This document shows positions 56,704 through 58,538 of a DNA stretch of 64,000 bases, piece by piece. This stretch comes from Desulfobotulus alkaliphilus (GTDB lineage Bacteria > Desulfobacterota > Desulfobacteria > Desulfobacterales > ASO4-4). The DNA lies in contig NZ_VLLC01000009.1 of NCBI RefSeq assembly GCF_007830435.1, forward strand, positions 46,437-110,436. The letters are read 5' to 3'. Made by a program: the position numbers and the translations under genes. The stretch's first letter is position 1, and the number at the start of each line of letters is the position of its first letter. Below the pieces are notes generated by a model. The model saw nothing but the letters and a program-made list of their open reading frames with translations, had not been told where the DNA came from and did not search any database.

Positions 56704-57579
56704 TCAATTCAGATGGAACAGATTTTTAAAGTCATCTTTTTTTAAAATACCATTCAGCCACTCCGCCATGTCCGGTGAATCATAAAAGGGCTGCTCCCTG
56801 AACCGGGCGAGAAACGGATCATAGTAGCTTTTTTCAAAACGCATGATGCGCTCCCCCATGACCGCCCTCACCCGTACAGCCTCCGGCCTGTGAAAGCGCA
56901 GATGATTCGCATCCAGCATCCCCATATCCGCAAAAGGCCTCACCTTGTGGGTACAGCGACAGGGATTGGAGGCATCCACATGGCCACAGATACCCTGCAT
57001 GTAATGGCCCACCCTCTGCCGGGCCCTGGATAGTTTTTTACGGAAAGCCTCGGGGGAAATGTCCATCAGCTCAGCACCCAGCCTGTCCCTCACCCCGAAG
57101 ACACCACCAAGGAGAAAGGCCATCCTTTCCGGTCGCCTGAGACAGAGTATCATCCCCATCATGCATCCGGTTTTTACTTCCTCCGCCAGCAGGGCCGTTT
57201 CCGGATGGGAATGGGTTCTGTCATCGGGCATTTTTTCAATGAGTGCCACATAGGTATCAAAATCATGGATGCGCACTTCAAATTTCTTTTTTTTCATGTT
57301 CAGCACATGGTTTACCACAATGCGGTAAAGCCAGGTACGGAAGGCTGCCTTTGACGGGTCGTATCCGCCAAGGTGGGTAAGCATCCGGATAAGGATCTCT
57401 TGGGTGATATCCTTTGCATCCTCATGATCCATCACCATTTTAAAAGCAATATTGTAAATCCATGCCTGATGGCGAAGGACAAGTTTTTCAAGGGCATCTG
57501 CATTCCCTTCCAGACAGGCCTGAACCAGCAGCAGATCCGGTGCCCCGCCCCCCTTTTCCTCTTTGAACGGATTTTTCAT
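56704..57579 (-). CDS. ECF-type sigma-70 factor with C-terminal extension
   Basis: A 291-residue protein. Region 2 is VLRHQAWIYNIAFKMVMDHE with DAKDITQEILIRMLTHLGGY and FRTWLYRIVVNHVLNMKKKK. Region 4 has ELMDISPEAFRKKLSRARQR. About 110 residues follow, with Cys/His at CGHVDASNPCRCTHKVRPF that may bind metal. It is divergent from the selenoprotein gene. ATG 57579 is chosen because it precedes region 2; the ribosome site is distant and the frame is open to 57783. Confidence 0.86.
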   Translation of the reverse strand: MKNPFKEEKGGGAPDLLLVQACLEGNADALEKLVLRHQAWIYNIAFKMVMDHEDAKDITQEILIRMLTHLGGYDPSKAAFRTWLYRIVVNHVLNMKKKKFEVRIHDFDTYVALIEKMPDDRTHSHPETALLAEEVKTGCMMGMILCLRRPERMAFLLGGVFGVRDRLGAELMDISPEAFRKKLSRARQRVGHYMQGICGHVDASNPCRCTHKVRPFADMGMLDANHLRFHRPEAVRVRAVMGERIMRFEKSYYDPFLARFREQPFYDSPDMAEWLNGILKKDDFKNLFHLN

Positions 57580-57772
57580 TATTTTCAAGATTCTCCTCTT
57601 TTCATGATAAAGCCAAACAGATCTTCTGACTTCTGATACAGCATAAACTCCCCTTGTGTGACGCAAATCATTTTTTTTGTCACAGACCCTTTTCCCGGAT
57701 GTATCAGGCAAAAGGAAAGCAGAAGATGAATTCTTATTACCCCCTGAAAAAGGAAACAAAGGAAAAGACGCA

Positions 57773-58402
57773 ATGGTAAACAAAATTTTATGGATTTCAG
57801 GTATCGTGCTTATGGTACTGACAGGATGCAGCAGTCAGAACCACAGCCAAATGAAGGAGAAAGACATGCAAAAAAATGCAGTCCCTGATGTTTCAGAAAT
57901 TTCTGTCCTTGATCTGGACAGCCATTCTGTAGCACTGAATTCTTTATGGGAAGACCGGAGGATCGTTCTGGTATTCCTCCGCCACTATGGCTGACTCTTT
58001 GCCCGGCAGCAGGTGGCTGCCCTGATGGATATAAAAAAAGAGCTGGATGCAATGGAAGTGGCACTGGTCGGCATCGGCAGCGGAACTCCCGAGGATGCCC
58101 GCTACTTCATTGAAAAATTTTCATATGAAGGAGAAATGTATCTGAATCAGGAACTGGATGCATACAGGGCCTTTGATCTGAAACGGGGCTTCTGGAGGAC
58201 ACTGGGGCCTTCTCCTCTGGCACGCGGATTCAGGGCCATGAAACAGGGATTCCGGCAGGGTCGCAGTGCCGGAGATCTCTGGCAACAGGGAGGTATTTTT
58301 GTCATCGGTCCCGGAGACAGGCTTCTGTTTGAGCATATCAACGGCATGGCCGGAGATCAGGCAGATCTCAAGGATGTTCTTCGGACAGCAGCCCTGCCAT
58401 AA
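57773..58402 (+). CDS. Selenocysteine-containing peroxiredoxin-like lipoprotein (AhpC/TSA_2 type)
   Basis: The frame reads LVFLRHYG, an in-frame TGA at 57992-57994, then LFARQQVAALMDI, continuing to a normal stop at 58402. Family members have RHxGCxFCR at this point, so the TGA replaces the first, active-site Cys and should be read as selenocysteine (residue 74). The second Cys is Ala. The rest (LVGIGSGTPEDARYFIEKF, YRAFDLKRGFWRTLGP) is clearly of this thioredoxin-fold family. A lipobox LTGC at residues 16-19 predicts an outer-envelope lipoprotein. A hairpin follows the TGA as bacterial SECIS elements require. Likely a peroxide-reducing or thiol enzyme. Confidence 0.9.
57992..58021 (+). promoter_or_regulatory. 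Bacterial SECIS hairpin
   Basis: After the TGA, 10 bases lead to the stem GGCAGC (58005-58010) and GCTGCC (58016-58021) with loop AGGTG. The E. coli fdhF SECIS, from memory, also presents AGGT at the top of a short stem, about 17 bases past the UGA; here it is 16. This supports SelB-directed insertion. Confidence 0.8.
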
Positions 58403-58509
58403 AAACAGCACCAAGGTCAGGGAAGGTTCAGAAAATCTTGCAGGGCTGGCATCTGATCTTCAAAGTCTTGTGGGTAAATTCAAAATCTGATTCCTGTTTT
58501 CTCCAAACA

Positions 58510-58538
58510 GCAAAAGGGTGCCGCTGGCACCCTTTTGC
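58510..58538. terminator. Bidirectional terminator hairpin
   Basis: GCAAAAGGGTGCC and GGCACCCTTTTGC form a perfect 13-base-pair stem with a GCT loop between the convergent selenoprotein and TetR genes. The A/T ends of the stem and the following ATTTTATT fit a terminator for both strands. Confidence 0.75.

Follow-up and report, generated by a model that had tools for sequence, protein, structure and literature searches.

A predicted selenocysteine lipoprotein of the AhpC-TSA_2 family encoded next to a divergent ECF-type sigma factor gene in Desulfobotulus alkaliphilus

Genes and features of the locus

The window, by which we mean the whole 64-kb stretch of Desulfobotulus alkaliphilus DNA analyzed here, contains two forward-strand reading frames, 57773-57994 and 57995-58402, which are in register and, according to translation of the window, are interrupted solely by a TGA codon at 57992-57994. 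Read through this codon, positions 57773-58402 (+) encode one protein of 209 residues, in which the TGA corresponds to residue 74 in the context RHYG-U-LFARQQ and residue 77, three positions after the selenocysteine (Sec), is alanine. A preliminary description of this DNA had proposed such a joint frame with a single TGA at this motif, as well as a sigma factor gene divergent from it, and both proposals hold: the former on translation, the latter through a reading frame at 56704-57579, the product of which matches sigma-70 region 2 in Pfam with 62 bits. The features of the locus are as follows.

56704-57579, minus strand: gene for an ECF-type sigma factor of 291 aa, with a C-terminal extension containing CGHVDASNPCRC (Pfam sigma-70 region 2)
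57635-57662, minus strand: promoter-like motif GTCACA-N16-TGTATC facing the sigma gene (motif scan)
57679-57705, plus strand: promoter-like motif GTCACA-N15-TGTATC facing the selenoprotein gene (motif scan)
57773-58402, plus strand: predicted SelL-related / AhpC-TSA_2 selenoprotein gene of the UxxA type, 209 aa (frame with one TGA, family profiles)
57773-57829, plus strand: predicted lipoprotein signal with lipobox LTGC, Cys19 (sequence)
57992-57994, plus strand: TGA, predicted Sec codon for residue 74, which is the first redox position of the family (homolog column)
58001-58003, plus strand: GCC for Ala77, which is Cys in the UxxC relatives (alignment)
58005-58021, plus strand: predicted SECIS hairpin GGCAGC-AGGTG-GCTGCC, with the loop starting 16 bases after the TGA (codon resampling, covariation)
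58511-58537, no strand assigned: terminator-like inverted repeat between the selenoprotein gene and a convergent TetR gene (sequence reading, Rfam-search alignment)

The protein matches AhpC-TSA_2 (PF13911) in Pfam with 74.3 bits against a gathering cut-off of 27. With Cys substituted for Sec, it spans 169 of the 173 profile positions of the NCBIfam model NF040769 (SelL_rel_redox) and scores just below the cut-off of that family (119.5 vs 120 bits), from which it is also set apart by its UxxA motif and its lipoprotein signal. The lipobox LTGC covers residues 16-19, and Cys19 is the sole cysteine in the protein. We are confident that the gene encodes a lipoprotein, and the lipobox predicts that the selenoprotein is exported and anchored by a lipid in the cell envelope.

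A short frame follows the selenoprotein gene (58403-58490, +) and is also present in one of the related loci (L023, from position 2281, +). The frame common to the two ends in SENLAGLASDL(Q/K)SLVGKFKI, which presumably resembles the tail of a chemotaxis receptor, and Pfam gave no match of any kind in the two pieces tested.

Decoding of the in-frame TGA

The 91 loci scanned with the profile gave 71 distinct sequences among the matches listed; one locus (L085) had no row, and three second-domain rows gapped at the Sec column were set aside. Among these matches, all 49 distinct sequences with the RH[FY]G context carry TGA at the Sec column (35 UxxA, 13 UxxC and one UxxS), and none of the 49 has Cys in place of Sec. 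Cys is found at this column in a distant RY.G group (six rows), and other Sec forms, RHLG-U and RGFG-U, occur in further distant groups. A scan of 58 genomes, including that of D. alkaliphilus itself, gave 16 matches in 15 genomes, and the FxRH[FY]G-x column is TGA in 15 of the 16, the weak sixteenth match (L037) having Cys. The order-level scan of 389 genomes returned 95 matches in 92 genomes, with at least one in-frame TGA in 89 matches, the six without TGA being the six weakest. A further stop was present in 13 of the 89 TGA-containing stretches, and in the three of these loci with readable upstream frames that were inspected (L102, L103 and L106), the frame containing the Sec codon is open from the start region onward. 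The class-level scan returned the same 92 genomes and was counted once, and a phylum-level scan of 395 genomes gave matches in 38, many of them weak. On named public contigs, TGA was found in 20 of 20 relatives, though one of the two query patterns spelled Cys at this position. None of the 29 stretches matched in a single-protein search and none of the 42 stretches matched when viral contigs were searched with alignment A1 encodes a relative.

Estimates of dN/dS for three same-genus comparisons were 0.10, 0.29 and 0.12 after the TGA, as compared to 0.53, 0.33 and 0.43 before it, in the signal and linker; in one of the three pairs the two regions were nearly equal (0.33 vs 0.29). Two more distant pairs were saturated, with a dN/dS of 0.33 in one and a value that was not computable in the other. 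The estimates indicate that the region 3' of the TGA is under purifying selection, and such low values are not as expected of a dead reading frame.

Bacterial SECIS elements are hairpins located shortly after the TGA with a G in the apical loop, and the hairpin at 58005-58021 fits this rule in both respects. Synonymous recoding with the pooled codons of the clade was applied to 36 sequences, the 35 UxxA members and the UxxS sequence, and in all 36 the hairpin was more stable than the recoding mean (mean z -2.98, range -1.56 to -3.89). Eleven control windows taken from these genes had mean z values of -0.80 to +0.31. These values indicate that the hairpin is favored beyond the coding content. 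Pairing was compared across 27 of these 36 sequences: in the hairpin, 99.4% of the 162 cells are paired, changes on both sides were seen in three of the six pairs (8 cells), and none of 500 shuffles attained the covariation score of 0.197. Of the five pair measures, one, the count of further pair types, was unremarkable, being reached by 91 of the 500 shuffles. A register shifted by -3 likewise gives pairing in 90.7% of cells, albeit with a score of 0.152 as compared to 0.197, and the CAG repeat is the probable reason. When the 59-base stretch that begins with the TGA was folded alone, it was no more stable than shuffles (z 0.38), and the eight Rfam matches obtained around the locus up to an E-value of 5 were all far below the gathering score and included no SECIS.

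The genome of D. alkaliphilus, the completeness of which is 98.12%, contains a tRNA-Sec with the anticodon tca (75.4 bits), selB (372.2 bits), selA (626.5 bits) and selD (383.1 bits), all with scores above their cut-offs. The selD gene (L018, G000:C17:66531-67451) has one in-frame TGA and SelD itself is thus likely to be a selenoprotein; the selD family is entered in Table 1 of PMC13188914 as one in which Sec is known. The preliminary description had placed a SECIS-like hairpin 16 bases after the TGA, and had suggested an inspection of homologs at the Sec column and a search for selA, selB, selC and selD. The hairpin is indeed at this position, with support from comparison and codon resampling; the homologs have TGA at the column rather than scattered lesions; and all four genes are present, selC being the tRNA-Sec.

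A genuine stop, be it a nonsense mutation, an error in sequencing or a deliberate truncation, would account for the interrupted frame and for the unremarkable stability of the downstream stretch when folded alone. It would not explain the TGA in 49 of 49 RH[FY]G-context sequences among the matches listed, the purifying selection downstream, the conserved and covarying hairpin or the Sec machinery in the genome, and on these grounds we reject a mutation or sequencing error and regard a true stop of any kind as highly improbable. Nor did anything specific speak for a suppressor or a changed code by which UGA would specify Cys or Trp, and such a reading is at odds with the tRNA-Sec with anticodon tca and with the hairpin after the TGA. 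Moreover, the only other in-frame TGA that we came across in the genome is that in selD, which belongs to a Sec-known family. A changed code was rejected for these reasons, and we give insertion of Cys or Trp next to no credence. It is almost certain that the window gene encodes a Sec protein, and the seemingly broken gene very probably encodes a genuine selenocysteine enzyme that is conserved among anaerobic bacteria. As suggested by the comparison, UGA codon 74 would be decoded as Sec by SelB and tRNA-Sec, helped by the downstream hairpin.

The divergent sigma factor and the promoter-like motif

Homologs of the sigma factor were identified near UxxA genes in two genomes of the same genus and in three other loci (L046, L052 and L054), with 39-60% identity and in three arrangements. 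When the sources are taken to be the window and 19 flanked loci, a sigma relative is present in four of the 20 and none is near the gene in the other 16; no neighbor recurs more widely except the group of the window histidine kinase (seven sources), the gene itself and any frames that overlap it in another register or on the opposite strand being excluded from this count. Four of the 58 genomes, our own included, have a sigma homolog at an E-value of 1e-30, and three of these belong to this genus. The homolog in G016 (L121) is on a different contig from the UxxC gene; it is the one homolog that does not lie beside a UxxA gene, and the flanks examined contain no motif. No anti-sigma protein was identified among the neighbors scanned with Pfam. 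The divergent protein stayed far below the cut-offs of the SigJ model (45.3 of 271) and the SigX4 model (44.3 of 323.25), both of which we take to stand for ECF41-like factors. In one of the same-genus genomes (G002), the sigma gene is split, with residues 1-171 beside the selenoprotein gene (G002:C41:1886-2398) and residues 166-291 on another contig (G002:C4:37311-37688).

There are two copies of the motif GTCACA-N14-17-TGTATC in the 64 kb of the window, one on each strand, as compared to 0.01 expected, and both copies fall within the 193-base gap between the selenoprotein and sigma genes and nowhere else in the window. The motif differs little if at all in the two same-genus genomes: both have identical TTTTTTTTGTCACAGA and GTATCAG blocks on the selenoprotein side, and the base preceding GTATC differs in L024. 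Outside the genus, TGTCACA-N14-17-GTAT was found four times in 304,101 bases of loci (L121 excluded), as compared to a mean of 0.45 and a maximum of 2 in 20 mononucleotide shuffles, and all four occurrences precede selenoprotein and/or sigma genes. The motif lies ahead of the sigma gene in L046, ahead of the sigma gene with the selenoprotein gene following in L054, and directly ahead of the selenoprotein gene in L053, in the flanks of which no sigma relative was found; in L052 it is followed by genes for a PrxQ-like lipoprotein, the UxxA protein and the sigma factor, in this order. As sisters on the tree, L053 and L054 are not fully independent. Throughout the genome of D. alkaliphilus, GTCACA-N15-17-GTATC is found at five places, two at the locus and three overlapping open reading frames elsewhere, with none for the reversed control; since about five places are expected by chance according to our arithmetic, we claim no wider regulon.

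Taken beyond adjacency, the divergent sigma factor is probably tied functionally to the selenoprotein gene, and the placement and conservation of the motif make it likely that the sigma factor controls this gene. The selenoprotein and sigma genes are probably transcribed from a shared type of promoter, TGTCACA-N15/16-GTAT, which the neighboring sigma factor would recognize, thereby forming a small self-activating unit.

The locus recalls the ECF41 factors, for which excerpts of PMC3426412 describe a TGTCACA-n16-CGTC promoter with a spacing of 16 +/- 1, a single neighboring redox target gene, and a motif that is often located on both genes when these are divergent. The TGTCACA element at -35, the spacing and the position of a sigma gene beside one redox gene are alike, whereas the -10 element is CGTC in ECF41 and GTAT(C/A)AG in the loci studied here, and the target at this locus is a selenoprotein. 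Because the -10 element differs and the available family models score low, we refrain from classifying the locus as an ECF41 unit, though it may function in the same manner.

The PrxQ-like gene of L052, a Desulfohalobiaceae MAG, is located directly before the UxxA and sigma genes and after the TGTCACA motif (L052:3360-3908, +), and encodes a TGA-containing PrxQ/BCP-type lipoprotein with a putative Sec that is suggested by its context, FYPKDNSKN-U-IKEF. Its best NCBIfam match has a score of 66.2 bits against a cut-off of 140, and ten relatives were found among the 58 genomes, of which six contain TGA somewhere and four do not. It is possible that L052 represents a sigma unit with two selenoproteins; no match to the PrxQ-like lipoprotein was obtained in the genus of the window at an E-value of 1e-10, and such a unit is therefore not claimed for the window.

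The UxxA subfamily, its predicted activity and its relation to known systems

In a tree of 65 rows, from which L111 and five weakly related rows were left out, a branch with a support of 98/98 unites 36 rows, of which 34 are UxxA, one UxxS (L053) and one UxxC (L049), and a UxxC branch adjoins it. The Ala that the preliminary description had noted at the position of the second Cys is thus the rule in this clade, and we have very little doubt that UxxA represents a conserved subfamily. No Cys follows Sec in 26 of the 35 distinct UxxA members, including one with an incomplete sequence (L111); it is kept in nine, in six of them at most 8 residues from the C-terminus. A lipobox was identified by our rule in ten of the 35, 54-55 residues before Sec; the 25 that fail the rule may be cytosolic or have an ordinary signal peptide, which is what L054 has by eye. 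Alignment A4 consists of the UxxS sequence and all UxxA members except L111, and each of its 35 sequences matches NF040769 at an E-value of 1e-5 or better. In Desulfatitalea alkaliphila, a culturable relative, the gene is found in L040. A MAG labelled Desulforapulum autotrophicum, presumably the later name of Desulfobacterium autotrophicum, has a UxxA lipoprotein (L047, the same sequence as L026). Excerpts of the genome report for Desulfobacterium autotrophicum HRM2 give at least 31 selenoproteins and mention a selenocysteine-containing peroxidase (PMC2702500). Another MAG encodes both a UxxA lipoprotein (L043) and a UxxC paralog (L049); the latter lies within the UxxA clade, and the resolving Cys may thus have returned there.

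An AlphaFold2 model built from 43 sequences (mean pLDDT 88.3) is closest in structure to the human prostamide/PGF synthase (Z 21.9, 160 residues, rmsd 2.3), followed by Bcp/PrxQ and other peroxiredoxins. The human enzyme (9us9, 9usa; we take the gene name to be PRXL2B) is the closest solved relative by profile too, with an E-value of 5.7e-26, and thiol-disulfide oxidoreductases of the ResA type are a weak profile match. It shares with the window protein the fold and the context of the active site (LRRFGCVVCRW and LRHYG-U-LFARQ, respectively), but it is a two-Cys protein (C44 and C47 in the entry title), in contrast to the Sec and Ala found here. The fold match says nothing about the substrate. 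The PxxxTxxC motif is absent, with His at position -3 in 35 of 35 sequences and Pro at position -7 in none of them, and the window protein is therefore not a peroxiredoxin in the strict sense. Since it has no resolving Cys, only the lipidated one, it should work as a one-Sec enzyme.

The human prostamide/PGF synthase presumably reduces an endoperoxide, and with such a relative, the PrxQ-like neighbor in L052 and the envelope anchor in mind, our best guess is hydroperoxide reduction, to which we give a chance a little better than even. The selenolate would attack a hydroperoxide, probably of a lipid or another organic compound, and the selenenic acid would then be reduced by an external thiol, a partner protein or sulfide.

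Alternatively, rather than reduce peroxides, the selenoprotein might exchange thiols and disulfides, or might sense the redox state and thereby control the neighboring sigma factor. The sigma gene adjoins it with no anti-sigma protein among the neighbors scanned with Pfam, the catalytic motif of the peroxiredoxins is absent, and the weak profile match to the ResA-type oxidoreductases points in the same direction. However, a UxxA protein is incapable of the usual internal bond of the CxxC type, and a sensor for the sigma factor is difficult to reconcile with the 16 of 20 sources that have no sigma relative nearby. The nearest solved relative is named for the reduction of an endoperoxide, and the UxxA gene adjoins that of the PrxQ-like lipoprotein in L052. 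We consider an exchanger or sensor unlikely, and prefer to view the window protein as an envelope hydroperoxide reductase with a single Sec and under the control of the sigma factor, a reading in which both the control and the activity are predicted and to which we assign a probability of roughly 70%. A more far-reaching idea, that the sigma factor and the one-Sec lipoprotein, which lacks any redox Cys, form a dedicated self-activating peroxide-defense unit in the envelope of sulfate reducers, with direct recycling of the selenenic acid by sulfide, is speculative and seems to us rather doubtful. Sulfide is plentiful in sulfate reducers, and if the idea were true, it would be the electron donor and the resolving Cys would be unneeded.

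Sec in the AhpC-TSA_2 family is already known, and Sec itself is therefore not new. A UxxS selenoprotein of the AhpC/TSA type, which we take to come from gutless-worm symbionts, belongs to the same Pfam family (pfam13911 / cd02970) and has Sec at the first redox position; it differs from the window protein in having UxxS rather than UxxA, and its published sequences are MDX2448127.1 and CAB1081847.1. One UxxS sequence of our set, L053, lies inside the UxxA clade. The family is listed with UxxS in excerpts of PMC9312934 and in Table 1 of PMC13188914, and this table, which according to the accompanying text covers 119 families, has no UxxA row. We did not find the UxxA form in the literature searched, with supplements, subscription papers and preprints being outside the search. 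New here are the UxxA variant and the apparent sigma unit with its promoter-like motif on both strands. As a widespread selenoprotein variant with Sec and no resolving Cys, the UxxA proteins would provide a naturally occurring system for testing whether a lone Sec can take over from a two-Cys mechanism. The locus also offers a case of a specific sigma factor apparently controlling a selenoprotein, and the promoter-like motif makes this control directly testable.

The family NF040769 is named after the eukaryotic SelL, which has two Sec residues in a UxxU arrangement, whereas the window protein has one Sec without a partner. SelL is presented as a Prx-like Sec family in excerpts of PMC2398784. 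Two further groups with Sec were observed at greater distance. One is a subgroup with RHLG-U-LPC on a long branch (L066, L067, L069, L070 and L071). The other, RGF[GT]-U-P[FY]A, is a second UxxA group of five rows (L076, L077, L078, L080 and L087) that is apparently separate from that of the window; its members read RGFG-U except for L087, which reads RGFT-U.
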